From contig JAHDCD010000005.1 of NCBI GenBank assembly GCA_020630095.1, forward strand, positions 1-64,000: a stretch of 64,000 bases of DNA. The letters are read 5' to 3'. This document shows positions 449 through 11,040 of this stretch, in pieces; position 1 is the first letter of the stretch; every line of letters begins with the position of its first letter. The stretch comes from Rickettsiales bacterium. Lineage in GTDB: Bacteria; Pseudomonadota; Alphaproteobacteria; Rickettsiales; UBA8987. Both the position numbers and the translations under genes were made by a program. The notes beneath the pieces were generated by a model. The model worked only from the letters and a program-made list of their open reading frames with translations, made no database searches and had not been told where the DNA came from.

Positions 449-2338
449 TTAAGTTGGGGGTTTAGCATCAATCACATCTGACTTAAGTAACTCAGCATAC
501 TTTATTGTATTACTTTGAGGCTTTGACATTTCATCCAACTCATTAACATTTAGTTTTATAGGTAGCTGAGTTAAGACGCCACTAAATATGCAAGTTCCAA
601 CAGGTAGGGTTGGTATTGACTTCTCACTAACCCTATCAATGTATGATATAGCATTAGAAATGCTTTCTAAATCTCTATTGTTTACTAGTCTGTGAATAAA
701 GTAGTTATGAGCTTGAGATATGATAGTAGAAGAAATGTCACTAGGTCTTTGACTTGATATAGTTACAAATATACCAAATTTCCTTCCCTCTTTGATAATC
801 TCTTCAAATGTTTCTAAACGATAGTTCTTCCAAGACTCCCCTTCTCGACTTGATTGATTTGAAAGTATATTATGAGCTTCATCTATAATGATGTTAAGAA
901 TACCATCACTTTTACTATTTTTCTTTTTATCATAATACCTTTTAGACAAAAGAAGTGGTATTATCTTTTTGAGTTCTAAATTACAGTCATTCATATTAAC
1001 AACCACGATATTTTCAGTCTCTGAGCTATCGCAATTAGTAACTTCAAAAACCTTATTAATTGAAGTTTTACGAGATTTTAATCTATTTATTACAGGGAAT
1101 ATATGTTCATTTGTAACTCTGTTAGACTGAATATCATTTATTAACTGCAAATATAAGAAATGAATTAGACGCTCTAATGGGTTGTCAGGAAGTTTATATT
1201 CCAACCCTCTTTTATAAATCTCTGTATTTCTAACTTCTTCTTTGCTTGTTTGATAATAGATAGATTTATCTTGAGACCTAAACTGAGGGCTTGAATTACT
1301 ATCCCCCTTGCCATTAAACCAGTCTAGACCTGATAATATATCTATATCCTGACCATTAGCGTCTTCTTTTTTTGAAAGTATGTTAGCAAAGTATGATGAG
1401 ATAGCCTCTGATTTATGCTTATCTGAAACCATAAAAAACTTATCAATAAAATAGCAAATTGAATTTTTGATATATTCTTTTGTGTTGTCACTTGTCATTA
1501 CTCTTTTGTAATACTCAAGCGTTCTATTTATAAATGGCTTTTGAGTTAGTTCCTTTGCATCGGATAAAATGGATATTAACTCTAAACTAAATAAGTCACC
1601 TTCAAAAATTGGGATTCTGTCTTTATCATCTACTCTTGTAGATAAGTTATAAACCTTTTTATTTGGACTGAGGCAATCTAAAGAAGTGTACTCCCCATTG
1701 AAATCAAAAAAGAGATACTTTGTTTTCTCTTTAAAGTCTTTATTAGACCTAGTTCTAAGCGTTGAGAATAAGTTCGTATATAAAGATGCTAAAGTGTTGG
1801 ACTTACCACTTCCTGTATTACCGAAAATAGCTATGTGGCTATTAAAAAGCCCATCAACTGGAAGGCTTATTTCTAGTCCATCTAATTCACTTTTAGCAAC
1901 GCTTATTGATAAGTCACTCGAGCCACTGAATGAGTATATTTTCTTTATTTTTTGCTCACTCAGTATGAAGGCTTTATTTCCAAGAAGGGGTAGTTCTTTT
2001 AACCCTCCAGTAAATATACCTTGAGAATCAATACACCCCTGAATAGATAAGACTAAAAATCTATCACTATTGTCAAAATTCTTAGTTTTCGCATTATAAT
2101 CTAACTTAACCTCTTCAATTCTTTCTTCTTCAACTTTACCAATTAGCGAACTGAAACCTTTCTTGATTTCAACAAAGCTATTAACAGATATGTTTTGTAT
2201 AAGCTTTCCGTTTAAAGGAAGATGACTAGAGTTCTTTTCTTTATCGATTTTTACTAATACCTTGTTGCCTCTTACTTCATAGACTTCTCCAATATGCAGT
2301 ACCGATTCAAGGTCACTTTTATTTTGTTGATTATTCAT
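449..2338 (-). CDS. HerA-family hexameric ATPase, partner of SIR2-like effector
   Basis: A 629-aa protein of the HerA/FtsK P-loop group (DUF87-like). An N-terminal HAS-barrel-like segment fills about residues 1-140. Walker A is GNTGSGKSNT (173-182), FDFNGEY follows at 211-217, Walker B is IIIDEAHN (483-490, acidic pair D486/E487), and SSQRPSD (528-534) fits the sensor region. HerA proteins form DNA-translocating hexamers, and in SIR2-HerA defence pairs the HerA ring assembles with the NADase. The start overlaps the end of the SIR2-like gene by 8 nt, so the two are translationally coupled and HerA is the last gene of the operon. Bacterial HerA without nurA, next to SIR2, points to defence rather than DNA repair. 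Family assignment is firm; the role is inferred from context. Confidence 0.88.
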   Translation of the reverse strand: MNNQQNKSDLESVLHIGEVYEVRGNKVLVKIDKEKNSSHLPLNGKLIQNISVNSFVEIKKGFSSLIGKVEEERIEEVKLDYNAKTKNFDNSDRFLVLSIQGCIDSQGIFTGGLKELPLLGNKAFILSEQKIKKIYSFSGSSDLSISVAKSELDGLEISLPVDGLFNSHIAIFGNTGSGKSNTLASLYTNLFSTLRTRSNKDFKEKTKYLFFDFNGEYTSLDCLSPNKKVYNLSTRVDDKDRIPIFEGDLFSLELISILSDAKELTQKPFINRTLEYYKRVMTSDNTKEYIKNSICYFIDKFFMVSDKHKSEAISSYFANILSKKEDANGQDIDILSGLDWFNGKGDSNSSPQFRSQDKSIYYQTSKEEVRNTEIYKRGLEYKLPDNPLERLIHFLYLQLINDIQSNRVTNEHIFPVINRLKSRKTSINKVFEVTNCDSSETENIVVVNMNDCNLELKKIIPLLLSKRYYDKKKNSKSDGILNIIIDEAHNILSNQSSREGESWKNYRLETFEEIIKEGRKFGIFVTISSQRPSDISSTIISQAHNYFIHRLVNNRDLESISNAISYIDRVSEKSIPTLPVGTCIFSGVLTQLPIKLNVNELDEMSKPQSNTIKYAELLKSDVIDAKPPT

Positions 2339-3344
2339 AAGTTATTGGCAATGAGTCCTTTATTAGTGAGTTCAGTCTCTTCAAGTCTATTTTTTCATCC
2401 TTTAGATAGTAAATTAAAACATTGTTATAACCATCAAATTTATCTTTGTATGACTTTACATTGCTTTCTTCATACGCAAAGATGATTACAGTTAGCGTAG
2501 GGTTTTTAAGTGATTTATGGGTAATGTCTCTTATGTGCTCGTCTTCGAATGAAAATCCTGTAACTATGAGTAAGCTTTGTTCATATTCCAGTTCATTTGC
2601 ATAAAGTCTTAATAAGTCATAATAAACTCTGCCAAGTACAGTTTCTCTAAACTTTTTCTTTTGGGGAAGGATGATGCAAGTCTTTGATTTATCTATATTC
2701 CCTAATACATTATAATAAATGTTATCTCCAGATTCTTGCCAATTTAGGGAGCCGTGTAGTTTAATTAAGTTTATAGATGGAGTTTCGATACTATAATTAT
2801 ACACCGAGCTTACCTTTTGTGAGGTTCTGTAATACTCTTGAGAAGAAAACTTTGGTGGATAAAGAGTGCAAGGAGTTCTTTCAAAACCGTCATTTAGTAT
2901 TAATTGCCCTAAATCATTAGAGGTCGACTCTATAAATAAATCATAATTTGTAGTAAACAGGTTTATCTTTTTCGGTAAAAGGTTGTTGCCATTTTCACTA
3001 AGGATACGCCCCATCAAGTTTAATAAGTCATAATAATTTGAAACTGTTTGCCAAATTACATTATCGTTATTTTGTTGTATGCAAGCATCTCTAAGCTCTT
3101 TGTGTGTATTGATTATAGATTGTTCAAACTCCTTAAGAAGTTTATCAGCATCAGCTTCTTTATCTTCATTTTGAAGGTCGGTAACTCTGTTCTCAATATC
3201 AGGCTCTGTCTTGATAGCCAAAGATGAAGCTCCCGAACCAATTAAGAAGTTAATTTTAGAAGACTGAAAACGCTTAATAAGCTCGCTTTTAAAACTATTG
3301 TAATCTTCATCACTTTGTGTGTTTATGCAGATTGATTGTGCCAT
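2331..3344 (-). CDS. SIR2-like NAD+-hydrolase effector
   Basis: A 337-aa stand-alone SIR2_2-type protein. The motifs appear in order: GSGAS (36-40, the NAD-binding loop equivalent to GAGxS), TTNYD (131-135), KLHGS (195-199, catalytic His197) and TGFSFEDEHI (262-271). There is no signal peptide or membrane segment. SIR2 domains in defence loci cleave NAD+ to starve infected cells, and the association with HerA is a described anti-phage arrangement. The start lies 6 nt after the DUF262-AlbA_2 stop, with the SD-like GGGGAT overlapping that gene's end. The region between residues 45 and 95 is a charged insertion with no obvious match. Catalytic motifs are intact, so it is likely active. Confidence 0.88.
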   Translation of the reverse strand: MAQSICINTQSDEDYNSFKSELIKRFQSSKINFLIGSGASSLAIKTEPDIENRVTDLQNEDKEADADKLLKEFEQSIINTHKELRDACIQQNNDNVIWQTVSNYYDLLNLMGRILSENGNNLLPKKINLFTTNYDLFIESTSNDLGQLILNDGFERTPCTLYPPKFSSQEYYRTSQKVSSVYNYSIETPSINLIKLHGSLNWQESGDNIYYNVLGNIDKSKTCIILPQKKKFRETVLGRVYYDLLRLYANELEYEQSLLIVTGFSFEDEHIRDITHKSLKNPTLTVIIFAYEESNVKSYKDKFDGYNNVLIYYLKDEKIDLKRLNSLIKDSLPITYE

Positions 3345-3350
3345 AGTGTA

Positions 3351-5474
3351 TTATCCCCAATGTAGTTTTTCGTATTCACTTTGTTCCTTTCTATTTTTTG
3401 AAACTGTTGCATTTCCCTCTCTTACATAAAAGTCCTCTTTACCTTCTCGATTAAAGAATACGGAACTAGTAAACTTAGTTGGAACATCAACAACACATAT
3501 TTCTTTATCATCAACATTTTCGAATGATATTTTGACATGCTTTGGAAAGCTATCTCCAAGATGCTTTTTAATAGCTTGCCTTAAGTAAAGCTCAAAGCCA
3601 TCTGCGTCTTGCTTTTTAAATGTTGCGTAATCATTTTGTAGACCAAGTATATTATGATTATCATCGACTCCTATTAATAATTTACCGCCATTAGCATTGA
3701 GAAACCCTGCTATAGTCTTAATTGAAGAATATTGAAGCTTGTCATTTTTGAGGTTTTGATTTGTGCAATATCTAAGAGAAGATTTGAATTCTAGCTCTTG
3801 CCCTTCTCCTTTGCTAATAAGTTCCTTCATTGGAGACTTGGACTCATAATACTCATTCTTAAGTTCGATTCGTTTTAATAGAAGTTTGTATATTTCTTTT
3901 GAACGCTCGGATAAGAAGCAGTCATAGTCATCATTCAAAATACCGAACTTTCTAATATCATTAATGAGATGCGTTTTAAGTGTCTCTTCTAACTTTTCAT
4001 TACTATCCATGTAATCTTCAATATAGTTAGAGGGGGCTTTTGCCCCTATCTCATACTTGTTAATTCTATCTCCAATAAGAGTAATATTAACTATGCTATT
4101 TTCATTTCTAATTCCTTCCTTTTTTAAGAAAGCCTTTGGAAAGAAATGGTGGTAGTTCTTACTATTTGCCCTTATTAAATAAGCATTACTTAGGTTTACC
4201 AAGCTGTTATTATCAAAGTTCTTAGGTTGCTGATAAGCAAGTAAACATATAATCGCTTTACATATACTACTTCCTGAACGGAAGTTAATATCAATTAAGT
4301 CTTCAGCAGATTTTACCAATAGATTATAGTCTTCGTAACTAGGTCTTTCTTCTTTTAATATCTTATCTATACGCTGTTTAACATCTTGAGATAAGCTAGT
4401 TTCAGAAGAGCTTGAATACCTTTCTGATAAAGATACTCTCCAAAAGAATTCTTCTAAATACTTAGATTGTATGTTTGTTGGGTTTCCCTTATTGAAATAA
4501 AAGAAGTATGTAAATGGAACCAGTAACGAATCGTATGGGAGTATAGTTGAAACTGGTATTCTAAATGTTTGCTTAATGAAGTCTATACTATGACAAAGAG
4601 CATTTATAACGTCATTCCATATATCAATAATCTCTTGCTTGTTTAGGTTAAGTAAAGCCTTTTTATTACATTCTTTATTCTCATTTAAAATAAGTGAAGT
4701 TGAGTGAAGTAGTATGGTGCTTGATATAGTATTGTACTCAATTTTCTTTAATCGCTCAATTAAAGCGTAGTAGCTTGCCTGCATATCAAACCCTTGTTTT
4801 TCGTCATAGGTCTTTGCAGACATAATCTCAAAGAGTGTAAGGGTTTTGCCGCCAACATTAATTCTTGTGAACACCTCTATGGCAGACTCAATATCTTGCT
4901 TCTTAAGAAGTATTGCGGAAAACTCATAGCCATTGAATATGGTGTAATATTTGGTTATCTTCTTGAAAAACTCTATTGAGAAGTTCTCTGAAAAATAATC
5001 TATTTTATCATTATATTGTAAAATCTCATGGAGAGAAACATGCACCCCTTCAGGCTTCTCATGAGTTACCAATATAGAATCCCTGTCATCTATATCAGCT
5101 TCAAGGTCTACATATATATTCTTATAATTCGTTTCTTTTGTCTCGCCATACTTAACAATAGATTGCCCTCTATAAGCGGCAAACAAAGATGTTATACGTT
5201 GCTGACCATCTAATACATAGTGAACTTCAGCCCCATCTTTTGCTTCAGGAAGTTCGAAGTTACCTATGTTTTTAATGTCACTTAGTCTTTCAGATGTTTC
5301 CCATAATATGAATGTACCTATGGGATAACCTTTTAATATACTATCTAATAAACCTGCTGTTTTATCTATTGACCAAACAAATTCTCTCTGGAACTTAGGT
5401 ACTTTTATTTTACCTGACTCTATTTCTTCTATTAGTGCTGTATACTTCTTTGATGTTGATATTGGTTGATTCAT
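3351..5474 (-). CDS. DUF262 (GmrSD/ParB-like plus HNH-like motif) fused to AlbA_2 Schlafen-type domain
   Basis: A 707-aa fusion and first gene of the defence operon. Residues 1-230 are DUF262: VPKFQREFVW (25-34), DGQQRITSL (89-97) and FTRINVGGKTLT (202-213), the ParB/Srx-like nucleotide-hydrolysing fold of GmrS-type proteins. Residues 440-485 carry YHHFFPKAFL (441-450) followed by spaced N460, N471, K473 and P481, resembling the DUF1524/GmrD HNH nuclease pattern. Residues 555-700 are an AlbA_2 domain: GQELEFKSSL (558-567), IAGFLNANGGKLLIGVDD (588-605) and FYVREGNATVSKN (682-694), the module at the front of Schlafen-like proteins. DUF262 proteins restrict modified phage DNA and AlbA_2 domains bind nucleic acid. 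I do not know this fusion from characterised SIR2-HerA loci. The start is supported only by a weak SD (AAGAAG). Confidence 0.85.
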   Translation of the reverse strand: MNQPISTSKKYTALIEEIESGKIKVPKFQREFVWSIDKTAGLLDSILKGYPIGTFILWETSERLSDIKNIGNFELPEAKDGAEVHYVLDGQQRITSLFAAYRGQSIVKYGETKETNYKNIYVDLEADIDDRDSILVTHEKPEGVHVSLHEILQYNDKIDYFSENFSIEFFKKITKYYTIFNGYEFSAILLKKQDIESAIEVFTRINVGGKTLTLFEIMSAKTYDEKQGFDMQASYYALIERLKKIEYNTISSTILLHSTSLILNENKECNKKALLNLNKQEIIDIWNDVINALCHSIDFIKQTFRIPVSTILPYDSLLVPFTYFFYFNKGNPTNIQSKYLEEFFWRVSLSERYSSSSETSLSQDVKQRIDKILKEERPSYEDYNLLVKSAEDLIDINFRSGSSICKAIICLLAYQQPKNFDNNSLVNLSNAYLIRANSKNYHHFFPKAFLKKEGIRNENSIVNITLIGDRINKYEIGAKAPSNYIEDYMDSNEKLEETLKTHLINDIRKFGILNDDYDCFLSERSKEIYKLLLKRIELKNEYYESKSPMKELISKGEGQELEFKSSLRYCTNQNLKNDKLQYSSIKTIAGFLNANGGKLLIGVDDNHNILGLQNDYATFKKQDADGFELYLRQAIKKHLGDSFPKHVKISFENVDDKEICVVDVPTKFTSSVFFNREGKEDFYVREGNATVSKNRKEQSEYEKLHWG

Positions 5475-5668
5475 CTTCTTAGTTTGTAAAAACTAAAATG
5501 TAAATTTTGCTATCTAACATTCAAGGTATTTTAGCTTGCTGAAGCAATCATACCCCCTCACTAACCTCAAGTTATTTTGACCACCCCTGCTATATTCCAA
5601 CGTGATAATCAAATTGCACCTTTTTGTAATCTCACGTGTAATGTTTTAAGATAACATGAGTGAGTTTA

Positions 5669-5881
5669 CTAATCTTCATTGGCATTATTGCGTCTAAAAA
5701 TCCACTCATATAAAGGAAATATCCAACCTTGATATACTTTGCGAAGCACTACTATTGGCAGAATCACATAAAAGCCAATTATACATAGTAATAAATAACC
5801 AGTCCAAGTTATTAGCCAATTATCAGTATCAGGAGCTAATACATCAATTAACTTACAAACAAGTTTGTCAATTAAATCCAT
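5669..5881 (-). CDS. small membrane protein, unknown
   Basis: A 70-aa protein with one strongly hydrophobic stretch at about residues 26-47, which may span the membrane once or hairpin through it, and a basic, Trp-rich tail ending in RRNNANED. A good SD (AAGGAAGG) sits about 5 nt before the ATG. It lies 12 nt after the lipoprotein gene stop, so the two are probably co-transcribed. I do not recognise the family. Phage-inhibitory or accessory membrane roles are possible but not shown. Confidence 0.55.
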   Translation of the reverse strand: MDLIDKLVCKLIDVLAPDTDNWLITWTGYLLLCIIGFYVILPIVVLRKVYQGWIFPLYEWIFRRNNANED

Positions 5882-5893
5882 ATTATCCTTCCT

Positions 5894-6403
5894 TTAATAA
5901 GTTGTACATTCAGTACCATTATCAGTTTCTACACAGCTAACGCTTTTGTTGCTGTTTATAGTAATTGAACTTCCATTTTTAGTAATATGAGTTGTATTAG
6001 AATTACTGCTACGCTTGCGTTTCTTGGAGGGGCTTTTAATACCACGAAGCAAATCATAATTATCACTAAAATCAGCTACTACATTGTCTTTATAAGCGAT
6101 AAATCTATGATGAAATGAACTCCACACTTCCCACTTATCATATTTAACGCCTTCAACATAAGCAGGGTTCTTTGCATCTAATAGATTATATTGAGTGTAA
6201 ACTAAGCCCTTAGCTTCGTCATTTGCGGTTTTATATGGTTTACCAAATATTGCTTCAACTTCATTTTTGGTTTGCCCCACTGCAATAACGCTATCAAAAT
6301 AAGCGTCTACTTTCTCTTTAGGATAAATGGTTTCATTACTACATGATGATAAGCCGAATGTGGCTATAATTATTAATGATAAGAACTTTATATATTTAAG
6401 CAT
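5894..6403 (-). CDS. SmpA/OmlA-like lipoprotein of the genomic island
   Basis: The 169-aa reading begins MLKYIKFLSLIIIATFGLSS followed by the lipobox Cys, a clear type II signal peptide. A strong SD (AAAGGAG) 9 nt upstream selects this ATG over a longer upstream start. The mature protein holds a SmpA/OmlA-type segment (VIAVGQTKNEVEAIFGKP), as in BamE-related proteins, and then a basic Ser/Asn-rich tail ending in a short Cys-containing segment. It is unrelated in position to the chromosomal bamE at 53402. On a mobile element such a lipoprotein could alter the cell surface, for example by receptor blocking or superinfection exclusion. That role is inference. Confidence 0.7.
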   Translation of the reverse strand: MLKYIKFLSLIIIATFGLSSCSNETIYPKEKVDAYFDSVIAVGQTKNEVEAIFGKPYKTANDEAKGLVYTQYNLLDAKNPAYVEGVKYDKWEVWSSFHHRFIAYKDNVVADFSDNYDLLRGIKSPSKKRKRSSNSNTTHITKNGSSITINSNKSVSCVETDNGTECTTY

Positions 6404-6738
6404 CTCTCTAACTCCTTTGTTTTTAGTTGGCAAAATGACTACCAGATGAGCAAATGCAACTTGGTAGTCGGGGAGTTTACAAAATCTGCTAAAAGAGAGA
6501 TTCACGACAATTTTTGGTCGTAAGACTTGGACATATACTGCCGTCTCCCCGACCTAAATCGAGGAAGACAAGCTATTTATATAGTGTGCTTGAGCCACTA
6601 CTTTTAGCAAGAGGTTGTAACGCCCCAGAATAAGAACTTACTTATTCCAATATCACTTATAAGTTAGAGTTTCATAATTGGAAGGATTACTTTCAAACAA
6701 AGGAAAAGCCCCCACCAATTAGCAGGGGCTAAGCCATT
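6404..6738 (-). other. long structured leader upstream of the lipoprotein gene
   Basis: No gene is seen in these 335 bases. Two 8-bp inverted repeats interlock: GACTACCA/TGGTAGTC (6437-6444 and 6462-6469) and TCGGGGAG/CTCCCCGA (6468-6475 and 6545-6552), which share bases 6468-6469. A small hairpin ACGAC/GTCGT lies between the long arms. This could be a structured 5' leader, an attenuator or a small RNA on the minus strand. Confidence 0.45.
6703..6730 (-). terminator. terminator after the DUF3987 gene
   Basis: On the minus strand the stem AGCCCCT...GGGGGCT is followed by TTTTCC. It begins 9 nt after the DUF3987 stop codon and would separate that gene from the lipoprotein operon. Confidence 0.7.
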
Positions 6739-8205
6739 CTAGGAAAACATCTCTTTATCTTCCTGCCAAGCTTTAAACCTCAAACTTTCATTCATAGGAT
6801 AAGATTGACAGAATCTAGCAAAATCTAGAACTGCTCCTTTGTTAAGTTCTTTTACAACATAATAAGGTTCAGGGCTTCCATTACCTGCCGATTTGAAGGC
6901 ATAGTAATCAATATCACCATTATCCTGCAACATACGCAGAGCTGATTTAAGTTTATTCTTAGTAATCTTGTTACCTCTATCATTCATTACTGAATGTAGG
7001 TAATCTAAGCTATATAGAGCCTTTGAAGGATTGTCATTGACCACATCTTTTGATTCACTCAAAATTTGCACAATCTTATGCTTCTCATAGCCAAGATATG
7101 TACCACCATAAGTATTATAAACACCTTTCATTCTGCTTTCAGCAACTTCAAGCAGATAAATAGCATCGTCAATATCTTCGATCTCAACGGAACGACTTCC
7201 TTTAGCAGCAGCTAAACACATAGATATTTTAACCATATGGTCGTTTCGCCTAGCAGAATAACTCTCAAATCTAGCGTCATTATCTACAAAGTTCTTTCCA
7301 TCATTAGCAATATATAATTCGTTGTAATACTTGCCAGCTTCAGCTGAAAAACTCATACTTCCAATATGAAATGCAGTTCTAAAACTTTGCTCAACTTGCT
7401 CTTTAAGCTTATAGTCAAACGGCTTAGGCTCAGGAATAGCTTTGTTCTTCATATGTTGATAAACTATAACAGATCTTGACAAAAAGCCATTTTCTCCAAC
7501 ATCATCAGGCAAAGCTTTTTCAAAAGTTTTAGGCACAGTTGCACCAAGAAATGTAAGATAGCAGTTGAAAATTTTAGCCGACTTATTAGCTAAGTTGTAA
7601 TCATACTGCTTCTTACAATCATACATCTCTATTAAGAAATGAATCATTTCATCTTGTCCAATACCTAAAAGAGTTGAAGCTTCGCTTATACAGCAGAAAA
7701 GCTCGCTGTTTTTAAGGTGAGCATCTTCAGACGATTTACCTTCAAACTTTCCAAGGTCTATATCGAGCGCAGAAGATAAGTTATCTAATATTGATGAAGA
7801 ACCATTATTAGACTTCTTCTTCTCCTTTTCCTGCTCAGCCTTATCTCTAACTATCTCCGATGCCATTCTATCAATAATGCCTTGCTTATGACCTGCAGTA
7901 TCATCAGGCGAAAACTTGACGTCAACGCTAGCATCTTCAATTTGCTTTCTGACCAACTTAAGAGCCGTACTCTTCCTTGAGGCTGAGTTGCCTGCTATAA
8001 ATACATATAAGTTGGCGTATGCTTTATATTCACCATGAGTTAAATAGCTAACTCTTCCCATACATGCGCTTATTCCTGCGATATATGAAAAAGTATGAAA
8101 CACTTCGGGTGATTCAGTATCCTCTACCATTTTAAGGTAAGTTTTAAGTGGTTCATTTTTAATCTTGGTTACGTCCAAGTATTTTAAATTATCATTGTAA
8201 GACAT
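6739..8205 (-). CDS. DUF3987 P-loop ATPase (element replication or maintenance)
   Basis: A 488-aa protein of the DUF3987 family. The N-terminal half carries the characteristic degenerate P-loop AGNSASRKST (71-80). A charged linker rich in Lys/Glu/Ser (about 130-160) precedes an acidic segment with SEASTLL and HFLIEMYD. The C-terminal part resembles a winged-helix region. DUF3987 proteins are common on integrative elements and prophages and are thought to act as primase/helicase-like replication ATPases. A strong SD (AAGGAG) precedes the ATG. The leader contains an imperfect 21-bp inverted repeat. An excisionase-like gene lies upstream and a terminator downstream. The replication role is inferred from family context. 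Confidence 0.75.
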   Translation of the reverse strand: MSYNDNLKYLDVTKIKNEPLKTYLKMVEDTESPEVFHTFSYIAGISACMGRVSYLTHGEYKAYANLYVFIAGNSASRKSTALKLVRKQIEDASVDVKFSPDDTAGHKQGIIDRMASEIVRDKAEQEKEKKKSNNGSSSILDNLSSALDIDLGKFEGKSSEDAHLKNSELFCCISEASTLLGIGQDEMIHFLIEMYDCKKQYDYNLANKSAKIFNCYLTFLGATVPKTFEKALPDDVGENGFLSRSVIVYQHMKNKAIPEPKPFDYKLKEQVEQSFRTAFHIGSMSFSAEAGKYYNELYIANDGKNFVDNDARFESYSARRNDHMVKISMCLAAAKGSRSVEIEDIDDAIYLLEVAESRMKGVYNTYGGTYLGYEKHKIVQILSESKDVVNDNPSKALYSLDYLHSVMNDRGNKITKNKLKSALRMLQDNGDIDYYAFKSAGNGSPEPYYVVKELNKGAVLDFARFCQSYPMNESLRFKAWQEDKEMFS

Positions 8206-8269
8206 ATTTATTCTCCTTATTTTAAAGGGTTAAGTGTTAGTGGGATTTCAAAGATTACACCTCAGATAA

Positions 8270-8355
8270 CAACTTCTGCGCACTCGCTAGGGTAGCCTCC
8301 ATATAGATTTATGGATTTTCCTTTTAGGGAAGGGCTAGGGAGTGTCGAGAAGTTG
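8270..8355. repeat. imperfect 21-bp inverted repeat between excisionase-like gene and DUF3987
   Basis: Arms at 8270-8290 and 8335-8355 match at 17 of 21 positions. The spacer holds a smaller perfect hairpin TCCATA/TATGGA (about 8298-8315). It could be an origin or operator of the element, or a structured leader of the DUF3987 mRNA. Confidence 0.55.
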
Positions 8356-8373
8356 AAATCTGTTATGTAATGT

Positions 8374-8553
8374 TTATCTGCTACTTTGAGATTCAAGCCA
8401 TTGCTCGACCTCTGAAAGCTTGAACATTAGCTTATTGCCTAATTTAAGATAAGGTGGGGCTTGCCCCTGTTTTCTCATTTTGTAATAATGAGATTTACTT
8501 ATCGCAATCATGGAAAGTAGTTCGTTGAATGTTATGAGCTTCTTTTGCATCAT
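8374..8553 (-). CDS. AlpA-like excisionase / MerR-type HTH protein
   Basis: A 59-aa reading frame that I translated directly. It starts ATG ATG at 8553 and stops at 8374. It reads MMQKKLITFNELLSMIAISK at the N terminus. Next come SHYYKMRKQGQAPPYLKLG, the recognition helix and beta-wing pattern of AlpA/HTH_17 proteins, and then FKLSEVEQWLES. AlpA-type proteins are excisionases or activators for P4-type integrases and usually sit close to the integrase, as here. The SD is weak. Length, motif order and context are all as expected for the family. Confidence 0.75.
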   Translation of the reverse strand: MMQKKLITFNELLSMIAISKSHYYKMRKQGQAPPYLKLGNKLMFKLSEVEQWLESQSSR

Positions 8554-8663
8554 TTCTATTTGCTGGTTGATGATGTATTATTACTAAGCAATAATTAGAA
8601 AGGAATATCGAGGGGGGTGCCATTTTCCTTGGAGAATAGCAAGGCATTATAAGCTATTGAAGT

Positions 8664-9512
8664 TTAAGAACTTTTATACCTTGCAGAAAGTTTCTTGAGT
8701 TCTTTTATGAAGTTTTTTATCCAATCGTCCCTCATTGTCTCACTGTTATTGGCATATTCATCTACAATATAATGTAATACTTTGATCTGCGTGTGCTTGT
8801 CTGGTTCAATTTTGTCTAGCTCCATAATTAAATAAGGAACAATTACTTTCAAAACTTCATATCTTTTCTCTTTTTCATTACCTTTTTTGGTATGTAATGA
8901 GTATGAGTTATCAGGTTGTGGCTCTAGCTCTTTTAAACTCTCAAAATCAATTAATATGTCATGCCTAGAAAATTGATTGCCATTATCAAAGACAATAGCA
9001 TTATATAGCTGTTTCATTATGCGCTCTTCTTCAAAACTTGAGCTATAAGAGGCTTCTAAATCCTTTTTAAATTTATTAAGTTCTTTTGAGTAGAGGGAGA
9101 TTTTGGTAATGTTCTCACAATCATCTCTGAGTAAGTTTATAGCTTTACCATGGTCGTTCAAATACTCATTTACATTCCATAGCCTGTAGAACTCTCTTTT
9201 TATTGTGACTACAGTTGGATTGCCATAATAAACCTTCGATAACCTACCTATTGATTTAACTTTACCACTACTAAGTAGCTTGAACAAATACCTTTCATTC
9301 TCCTGATAATACTCCTCTACTTGAAAGACTTCATCAGAAGTATTTAATATGTCTACGCCATTAATTAACCTAGGTTTAGTAAGATAATATTGCGAGAGGT
9401 AGTTTACGGCATCACGCCATGAAATATATTGCTTACCTTCTAACTGCTTTTCATCTAAAGGTTCTATGTATTTAGATGATATTAACTCATCTTTGTTTTG
9501 CTTTTTTGGCAT
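8664..9512 (-). CDS. uncharacterised protein of the island
   Basis: A 282-aa soluble, charged protein with no signal peptide or transmembrane segment. The N terminus is Lys-rich. The middle (about 60-130) carries aromatic residues (VEEYYQENERYLFKLL and REFYRLWNVNEYL). The C-terminal third is helical and Lys/Glu-rich (EVLKVIVPYLIMELDKI, IKNFIKELKKLSARYK). I do not recognise a family. Its place between the integrase (34 nt away) and the excisionase suggests an element-maintenance role, possibly DNA binding. The only SD-like sequence is the weak AAAGAG. Confidence 0.55.
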   Translation of the reverse strand: MPKKQNKDELISSKYIEPLDEKQLEGKQYISWRDAVNYLSQYYLTKPRLINGVDILNTSDEVFQVEEYYQENERYLFKLLSSGKVKSIGRLSKVYYGNPTVVTIKREFYRLWNVNEYLNDHGKAINLLRDDCENITKISLYSKELNKFKKDLEASYSSSFEEERIMKQLYNAIVFDNGNQFSRHDILIDFESLKELEPQPDNSYSLHTKKGNEKEKRYEVLKVIVPYLIMELDKIEPDKHTQIKVLHYIVDEYANNSETMRDDWIKNFIKELKKLSARYKSS

Positions 9513-9546
9513 GAATACTCTTTACCATTAGCCATATATTATTCAA

Positions 9547-10782
9547 CTAACTAACCCTACCACTATCAATATCAAAGTTGAATTTAGCACCTAGGCTTTC
9601 TAACTTATCCGCCCACCATTGCATTAGGCGTATGCGCTCTTCTATATATTCAGCTTTGTTGTAAGTGGCTCTGATTTTGTTGGTTGATTTAGTGCTGTGG
9701 TGTAGTTGAATCTCAATGGCATCGGGGTGGAACTCCATAGAATTATTGGCAATAGTAGAAAAACAATGTCTCCAACCATGCATAGACATTCTATCTTTAT
9801 AACCTGCCTTATGGATTATCTTCATCATCACATGCTCACTTATAAACCTGTTTTTACCAGTTGAAGGAAATACATATTTATAACCAAAGCCTAACTCTTT
9901 AATCTGCTCTATCACATGGCGCAGTTGTTTAGAGATAGGCACGATATGAGGTTTAGTAACCTTCATCTCTTCTTCAGGCATTACAATTTGGCTATTCTCT
10001 AAATCAATATACTCCCATTTCATCTTACGAATATTGATAGGACGCAGAAATGTTAAACAGGCAAAGTGAAAGGCATATAATCCCATTGATACAGAGTTCT
10101 TGTCATATAGCTCTTTGAAAAACTGAGGTAAATCTTCTTCAAATAAGAAAGGCATATTCTTTTCTTCCTTCTTTATAACTATCTCACGCAGTTCAACATC
10201 ATTAACAGGGTTGCGGTCAATCTTCTTATGAAGTAGCGCATGCGCAAATACTCGCCTTAAATCTTCTTTCAGCTTTTGGCATGTTTCAGGCTTATCACGA
10301 ATCTTATCAAATACAGAATATAGATGGCTCGGCTCAATATCTTCAATAGGCATATAGCCAATGGCAGGGAATAAGTGTCTTTCAAATCTAGACATGTTCT
10401 TTCTATTAGTGCTATCTGAACGCTTGCCCTCTTGGGTTTTAAACCAAGCTCTAGTAATATCCTCAACGCCATTATCTAACTTGGCTTTAACTGCTAGCTT
10501 GTCCTTCTTCTTTTCTAAACTAGGATTAATACCATCTTTGATTTGGAGTTTTAGCCTATTGCGCTCTAGCCTTGCTTGTTCAAGTGAGATTTGCCCTTCA
10601 GCCTTACCATATTGACCTATTGTATAGAGAAACGCTTTGCCACCAAATCTATAACGCAGGAGGAAAGTCTTATTAACAGTTTTAGCTACTTTCGCCACTA
10701 AGCCACCACCGCAAGGTACAGTTTCACCTGCTTTAGCTGTGGCTATGGTTTTATCTCTGGTTAATTCACCTTTTCTTTGCAT
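9547..10782 (-). CDS. int: P4-type tyrosine integrase
   Basis: A 411-aa site-specific recombinase. Residues 1-90 form the DUF4102 N-terminal domain (GGKAFLYTIGQYG, then an ISLEQARLERNRLK helix). A core-binding domain follows (about 105-200). The catalytic domain carries Arg247 (FLRPINIRKMKW), a Lys near 274-277, H335-x-x-R338 (HGWRHCF), H361/H362 and the nucleophile Tyr374 (RATYNKAEY). It catalyses integration and excision of the surrounding element at tRNA-Leu(UAG), whose 3' end lies about 170 bp upstream. The gene is intact and of normal length. A TTATACAC repeat array between gene and tRNA probably holds its arm sites. Confidence 0.93.
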   Translation of the reverse strand: MQRKGELTRDKTIATAKAGETVPCGGGLVAKVAKTVNKTFLLRYRFGGKAFLYTIGQYGKAEGQISLEQARLERNRLKLQIKDGINPSLEKKKDKLAVKAKLDNGVEDITRAWFKTQEGKRSDSTNRKNMSRFERHLFPAIGYMPIEDIEPSHLYSVFDKIRDKPETCQKLKEDLRRVFAHALLHKKIDRNPVNDVELREIVIKKEEKNMPFLFEEDLPQFFKELYDKNSVSMGLYAFHFACLTFLRPINIRKMKWEYIDLENSQIVMPEEEMKVTKPHIVPISKQLRHVIEQIKELGFGYKYVFPSTGKNRFISEHVMMKIIHKAGYKDRMSMHGWRHCFSTIANNSMEFHPDAIEIQLHHSTKSTNKIRATYNKAEYIEERIRLMQWWADKLESLGAKFNFDIDSGRVS

Positions 10783-10954: not shown

Positions 10955-10971
10955 TGGTGCGCATAGAGGGA
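10955..10971 (-). repeat. attR core (tRNA-Leu 3' end)
   Basis: These 17 bases at the 3' end of the intact tRNA recur at 125-140 with one base missing. This copy restores the tRNA after integration. Confidence 0.7.
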
Positions 10972-11040
10972 GTCGAACCCCCACGCCTCGCGGCACTAGA
11001 ACCTAAATCTAGCGTGTCTACCAATTCCACCATATGCGCA
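10955..11040 (-). tRNA. tRNA-Leu (anticodon UAG)
   Basis: On the minus strand an 86-nt tRNA folds with acceptor arms TGCGCAT/ATGCGCA and an encoded CCA. The anticodon stem CTAGA/TCTAG encloses the loop TTTAGGT, giving anticodon TAG. The T arm contains GGTTCGACT preceded by a GC-rich stem, and the long variable arm is typical of leucine tRNAs. It is the integration target of the neighbouring element and remains complete, so the insertion preserved the gene. Confidence 0.95.

Follow-up and report, generated by a model that had tools for sequence, protein, structure and literature searches.

The GmrSD proteins of the Machnicka 2015 survey carry extra domains of the DUF4268, DUF4357, and DNA_binding_1 types, and AlbA_2 is not among them (PMC4619093). 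In the Schlafen protein SLFN13, Glu205, Glu210, and Asp248 are each required for the tRNA-cleaving RNase activity (PMC5862951). In the same study, SLFN5 and SLFN1 left the assayed tRNAs uncut despite retaining key catalytic residues, and such residues are therefore no proof of activity by themselves. Schlafen RNases linked to BREX have already been described with other partners (PMC12839542); a search of open-access journal papers gave no report of DUF262/GmrSD joined with Schlafen/AlbA_2. The window described here, a 64,000-nucleotide stretch of a Rickettsiales bacterium (contig JAHDCD010000005.1, positions 1 to 64,000), codes for a protein of this kind, a widespread but apparently undescribed GmrSD/BrxU-type enzyme with a Schlafen-like arm.

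The ORF listing contains an uninterrupted, ATG-started frame of 707 aa on the minus strand of the window at exactly 3351-5474, in agreement with the initial annotation, which gave the same frame and coordinates and left the strand unstated. The gene and its domains are as follows.

3351-5474, minus strand: DUF262-HNH-AlbA_2 fusion gene (ORF, Pfam, AlphaFold, and a 34-member colinear family)
4812-5435, minus strand: DUF262 (GmrSD_N) domain, ParB/Srx fold, predicted NTPase/sensor, residues 14-221 (Pfam and motifs)
3867-4190, minus strand: predicted HNH (His-Me finger) nuclease region, residues ~429-536 (BrxU profile alignment, fold match, and conservation)
3354-3839, minus strand: SLFN_AlbA_2 arm, residues 546-707 (Pfam, arm model, and triad)

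Pfam places PF03235 (GmrSD_N) at residues 14-221 (112.7 bits against a cut-off of 33.2, E=3.2e-32) and PF04326 (SLFN_AlbA_2) at residues 557-690 (59.5 bits against 25.3, E=6.1e-16). Both assignments are far above chance, and in a profile search of the genome (1.6 Mb, 13 contigs) this gene is the sole carrier of PF03235 and PF04326; NCBIfam assigns the protein to no family. The DUF262 motifs (P26..Q29R30..V33W34, D89GQQR93, and F202..N206) are invariant across 34 fusions, comprising the window protein and those of the fetched loci, except for G209 (33/34), and the motif positions initially proposed are all correct, with HHFFP starting at 442. A full-length AlphaFold model from the 34-member alignment has a mean pLDDT of 85.7, and its best Foldseek matches are BrxU (E 2.7e-14) and then SspE, with DIP2311, SAMD9, SLFN13, and SLFN11 matching the C terminus. 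VIA-align of the same model pairs residues 4-540 with BrxU (Z 18), a similarity claimed at the domain level only, the superposition having an rmsd of 18 Å from differing domain placement; residues 211-540 pair with the SspE C-terminal domain (Z 9.4), residues 545-707 with the SAMD9 tRNase domain (Z 12.3), and residues 547-675 with the SLFN13 catalytic lobe (Z 9.2). Pfam, a BrxU profile alignment, and the AlphaFold matches agree in placing DUF262, HNH, and AlbA_2 in one chain, as had been suggested from the sequence.

In the HNH region, no HNH or DUF1524 model of Pfam matches the window protein, but close relatives have weak PF07510 (GmrSD_C) matches over this stretch. A profile of the 34 fusions gives an end-to-end alignment with BrxU over residues 10-548 (E=5e-37), in which H442-H443-F-F-P446 falls on the BrxU D-H-I-Y-P and the Asn residues are N463 and N472; the first motif is HH in the fusion and DH in BrxU. 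H443 is present in 33 of the 34 fusions, N463 in all of them, and N472 in 32, and the [D/E/H]HxxP plus Asn pattern of GmrSD-type C-terminal DUF1524/HNH domains is recognizable through the BrxU alignment and the fold, with His as its first residue. Residues ~430-500 are thus predicted, from model and alignment, to be part of a BrxU/SspE-type HNH domain, which encloses residues 440-485, the segment on whose HNH fold the initial annotation had staked its proposal beforehand. One fusion (L110, 5702-7813) has the changes H443Y and N472P, with the DUF262 motifs and the arm triad intact. Its HNH is probably dead, and the retention of the arm site beside a degenerate HNH is a natural clue, from one member only, that the arm has importance of its own.

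Modelled alone, the arm has a pLDDT of 95.9 and VIA-align Z scores of 13.0 against SAMD9 and 9.7 against SLFN13. The concern that the AlbA_2 match might be spurious is dispelled by this structural comparison, which gives a Schlafen/SAMD9 fold. Pfam finds one AlbA_2 stretch only, and the VIA-align fold matches span one Schlafen lobe; having a single lobe, and no two-lobed (pseudo-dimeric) core, the protein is AlbA_2/Schlafen-like rather than a Schlafen. Profile alignment pairs SLFN13 ESASIEFK...GVDDE with GEGQELEFK...GVDDN of the fusion, so the SLFN13 triad E205/E210/D248 corresponds to E557/E562/D605. E557, E562, K564, D605, and R685 are present in all 34 fusions (EFK was one of two locus-finding patterns, and the conservation of E562 and K564 is therefore partly ascertained, that of E557 and D605 not), and N593 is a further listed residue of the arm. 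The triad is a family trait, however, being present too in 25 AlbA_2 proteins that have no DUF262.

The invariance of this three-carboxylate site argues that the arm is more likely to be a second nuclease than the nucleic-acid-targeting module originally envisaged for it. The principal alternative, which we consider somewhat unlikely, has the HNH as sole effector and gives the arm no catalytic part, only nucleic-acid binding or regulation; the fusion would then be a BrxU-like Type IV restriction enzyme with an added DNA-binding module, comparable to the DUF4268, DUF4357, and DNA_binding_1 additions. The C-terminal domains of other GmrSD proteins are indeed variable (PMC4619093), and the first structure of the SAMD9 domain was presented as that of a DNA-binding domain (7ksp title), but the best fold matches of the arm are characterized tRNases, barring one uncharacterized protein. 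The invariance of the carboxylates, K564, and R685 likewise sits poorly with a purely binding role, as does the arm site kept in L110.

The distribution of the protein bears on the same question. The fusion was initially described as unusual, which is only partly right, as it belongs to a recurrent family. A genome-collection scan and blastp identified ∼27 loci with fusions 48 to 59% identical to the window protein, the majority full-length and a few broken by contig ends, in Bacteroidota, Pseudomonadota, Verrucomicrobiota, Cloacimonadota, Calditrichota, and archaeal MAGs, some of which may be mis-binned. At least 12 distant colinear full-length fusions (∼23 to 29% identity) are present in haloarchaea, Sinorhizobium, Planctomycetota, Elusimicrobiota, Myxococcota, and one viral contig. 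The nearest core relatives (45 to 49% identity), carried by roseobacter plasmids and by other genera of the order to which the window belongs, lack the arm, so the core can do without it, a point in favor of the non-catalytic reading. In a core-only tree there are five changes of fusion state, at least four of them forced by well-supported branches, and in the arm tree the distant fusions are interleaved with AlbA_2-only proteins, so that the arm has been joined, swapped, or lost several times, the exact number of changes being unsure with the quick tree method used and some long branches.

Two other accounts of the family were rejected. Against a chance or assembly-artefact fusion stands the recurrence of colinear ∼707-aa fusions in dozens of genomes. 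As to a phage-borne origin, there are matches in only 11 phage records, all with query coverage below 80%, and a scan of viral contigs yields three loci. Several related proteins are also of note. The order to which the window belongs has near-identical armless DUF262-HNH genes in four genera from two families (L003, L004, L005, and L006), which suggests recent horizontal spread. Candidate-phyla proteins of 1151 to 1155 aa (L093:4097-7552, L095:4097-7552, and L126:1531-4998) have the same AlbA_2 arm at their end, and two of them are within 3 kb of an HsdM-like gene (27 to 28% identity). A 715-aa protein (L052:4513-6660) ends in an AlbA_2 arm, and Pfam matches nothing in its N-terminal part.

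In the window, the fusion gene is adjacent to a second putative defense system, which the initial annotation did not mention, and lies in a segment that also includes an integrase and a tRNA gene.

2331-3344, minus strand: SIR2-family NADase, 337 aa (PADLOC PDLC04080, E=1e-91; TTNYD and KLHGS intact)
449-2338, minus strand: HerA ATPase, 629 aa (PADLOC PDLC04097, E=4e-191; Walker A GNTGSGKS, Walker B IIIDEAH)
9547-10782, minus strand: tyrosine integrase of the island (Pfam Arm-DNA-bind_3, Phage_integrase)
10955-11039, minus strand: tRNA-Leu beside the integrase, likely attachment site (ARAGORN)

The 11-kb segment from tRNA-Leu and the integrase to the contig edge has a lower G+C than the rest (0.337 versus 0.379), and 449-10782 with tRNA-Leu looks like a genomic island containing an integrase, a DUF3987 protein, and defense genes; its far end is lost at the contig start (position 1), and no attachment-site repeat of the tRNA-Leu of at least 14 bp is present within the window. 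Two island proteins, at 5894-6505 (203 aa, lipoprotein-like) and 8664-9512 (282 aa), have no convincing family. The adjacent NADase and ATPase genes (449-3344), both with their active-site motifs, form a SIR2-HerA (Nezha) pair, and because both proteins miss the NCBIfam equivalog cut-offs, the pair represents a divergent subtype. Nezha-type pairs deplete NAD+ in phage-infected cells, and two genes suffice for defense in other bacteria (PMC11559045).

The fusion gene is 6 bp upstream of the SIR2 gene, HerA overlaps the SIR2 gene by 8 bp, all are on the same strand, and the three are probably co-transcribed. This compact arrangement and the similar low G+C raise the idea that the fusion is a third SIR2-HerA component, a nuclease and sensor feeding the NADase from one operon, with a parallel in SAMD9, which joins AlbA, SIR2, and NTPase in the same order (PMC12331169). 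We regard this as very improbable, since no SIR2 or HerA homologue is beside any other fusion locus examined, the SIR2-HerA loci of four enteric plasmids and of an order-relative (G133) are without a DUF262 gene, and the two-gene Nezha is sufficient elsewhere; with the linkage seen neither at the other fusion loci nor at the other SIR2-HerA loci examined, it was rejected as the main reading. The pairing is thus most likely local, and the SIR2-HerA pair is a separate neighboring system of which the fusion is not a known component. The order of AlbA_2, SIR2, and P-loop ATPase over three co-oriented ORFs (449-5474) is that of vertebrate SAMD9, where the three are within one chain; this is probably a coincidence, because the other fusion loci have no SIR2 or HerA.

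At other loci the fusion gene (FUS) occupies guest positions in defense operons of several kinds, a habit also absent from the initial annotation. In Halomonas, Kangiella, Porticoccus, and another gammaproteobacterium (L066, L069, L070, and L077), the order is hsdR-FUS-hsdM-hsdS with gaps of 2 to 4 bp, the Porticoccus hsdR being truncated by a contig edge; hsdR and hsdM are near-identical at the four loci (81 to 95%), which hence represent one or two insertion events. Three Rhodobacteraceae loci (L080 to L082) have the order PglZ-BrxL-FUS, and in the distant clade one fusion (L048) is between an hsdS-like ORF, recognized by its C-terminal motif only, and hsdR. Elsewhere, the fusion overlaps by 4 bp a 714-aa gene without a Pfam or PADLOC match (L071, 3546-5690) that adjoins a Type ISP enzyme. 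At two further loci it follows an AAA_13 gene at a distance of 34 bp (L084) and an Hhe/PDC-S37 helicase-nuclease at 19 bp (L083). Many other fusions are amid housekeeping genes with no defense gene nearby. PADLOC matches 302 families among 91 fusion neighbors and 91 families among 91 AlbA_2-only neighbors, the tallies counting families and not loci, and the commonest family is matched by 8/91 fusion-neighbor proteins versus 2/91 AlbA_2-only-neighbor proteins. A Fisher test of defense genes near fusions versus AlbA_2-only genes (p=0.002) was discarded, as its queries came from the very fusion loci under comparison, and the PADLOC tallies are fairer in this respect.

These positions invite a PrrC-like explanation, in which a restriction or BREX complex silences the fusion or is monitored by it, and the RNase arm fires upon inhibition of that complex by a phage. 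There is a precedent in PrrC of the EcoprrI hsd operon (PMC2610378), and the insertions are repeated: between hsdR and hsdM in four genomes, between the hsdS-like ORF and hsdR, after brxL at three loci, and near the Type ISP, AAA_13, and helicase systems, with PADLOC defense matches commoner beside fusions than beside AlbA_2-only genes. However, a single conserved protein-protein contact is difficult to reconcile with such varied partners, many of the fusions are solitary, and the four hsd loci reduce to one or two events. The Type I restriction-modification linkage that such a guard would call for is seen in several fusions, but not in all and not in the window, and we think this explanation quite unlikely.

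The reading that we prefer, while giving it only an even chance, is that the fusion is a single-chain, Type IV-like restriction or abortive-infection factor, in which an NTP-gated HNH DNase is joined to an RNase arm of the Schlafen type. By homology to BrxU, GmrSD, and SspE (PMC10952713, PMC8565348), DUF262 would bind and hydrolyze NTP and sense invading, probably modified, DNA, which the HNH, whose motif and fold are observed, would then nick or cut. The arm, to judge from its fold and residues, may be a Schlafen/SAMD9-type endoribonuclease acting on RNA, likely tRNA or else another structured RNA, and its RNA cleavage would be a second line that shuts down translation. The gene travels as an add-on within defense operons of unrelated kinds, and, speculatively, the arm could be a back-up fired upon inhibition of the host operon, as is PrrC in the EcoprrI operon (PMC2610378). 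The extended proposal, that a Schlafen-type RNase and modification-dependent DNA restriction in one chain form a mobile back-up in Type I, Type ISP, BREX, and SIR2-HerA operons, killing translation when the DNA-level defense of the host operon is overcome, is doubtful. If it is true, bacteria and archaea have on several occasions combined Schlafen-type RNA restriction with DNA restriction. The recurrence in unrelated restriction operons offers a testable case for modular back-up immunity. An active RNase arm would make the fusion a single-chain restriction factor with both DNA and RNA nuclease functions, and it would directly parallel, in prokaryotes, the vertebrate Schlafen/SAMD9 antiviral tRNases; the predicted catalytic residues are all named, and point mutants could separate DNA-only, RNA-only, and dual action.

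Among known systems, the PrrC and RloC anticodon nucleases resemble the fusion in that it, too, may be an RNA-cutting effector encoded inside Type I restriction operons (PMC2610378); the likeness is confined to genomic habit, as their ATPase and nuclease folds are unrelated. Two PADLOC models match the core, PDC-M55C at residues 13-531 (E 4e-58) and HEC-05 at residues 8-538 (E 3e-34); these models (554 and 600 positions, respectively) are candidates only, with no mechanism, and their matches stop before the AlbA_2 arm. The phosphorothioate-sensing proteins SspE and DndI share the DUF262 NTPase and an HNH-type C-terminal domain (PMC10952713), but are without an AlbA_2 arm and are tied to phosphorothioation systems. 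The Schlafen proteins SLFN11, SLFN13, and SLFN14 and the SAMD9/9L tRNase domains have the AlbA_2 fold and the SLFN13-type three acidic residues in common with the fusion, whereas the fusion is prokaryotic, single-lobed, and joined to a DNA-restriction module. BrxU/GmrSD shares with the fusion a single chain with the DGQQR-containing DUF262, a helical linker, and an HNH with [D/H]H-x-[F/Y]-P and two Asn residues, and, like the fusion, may adjoin BREX; to this architecture, the fusion adds the C-terminal AlbA_2 arm.
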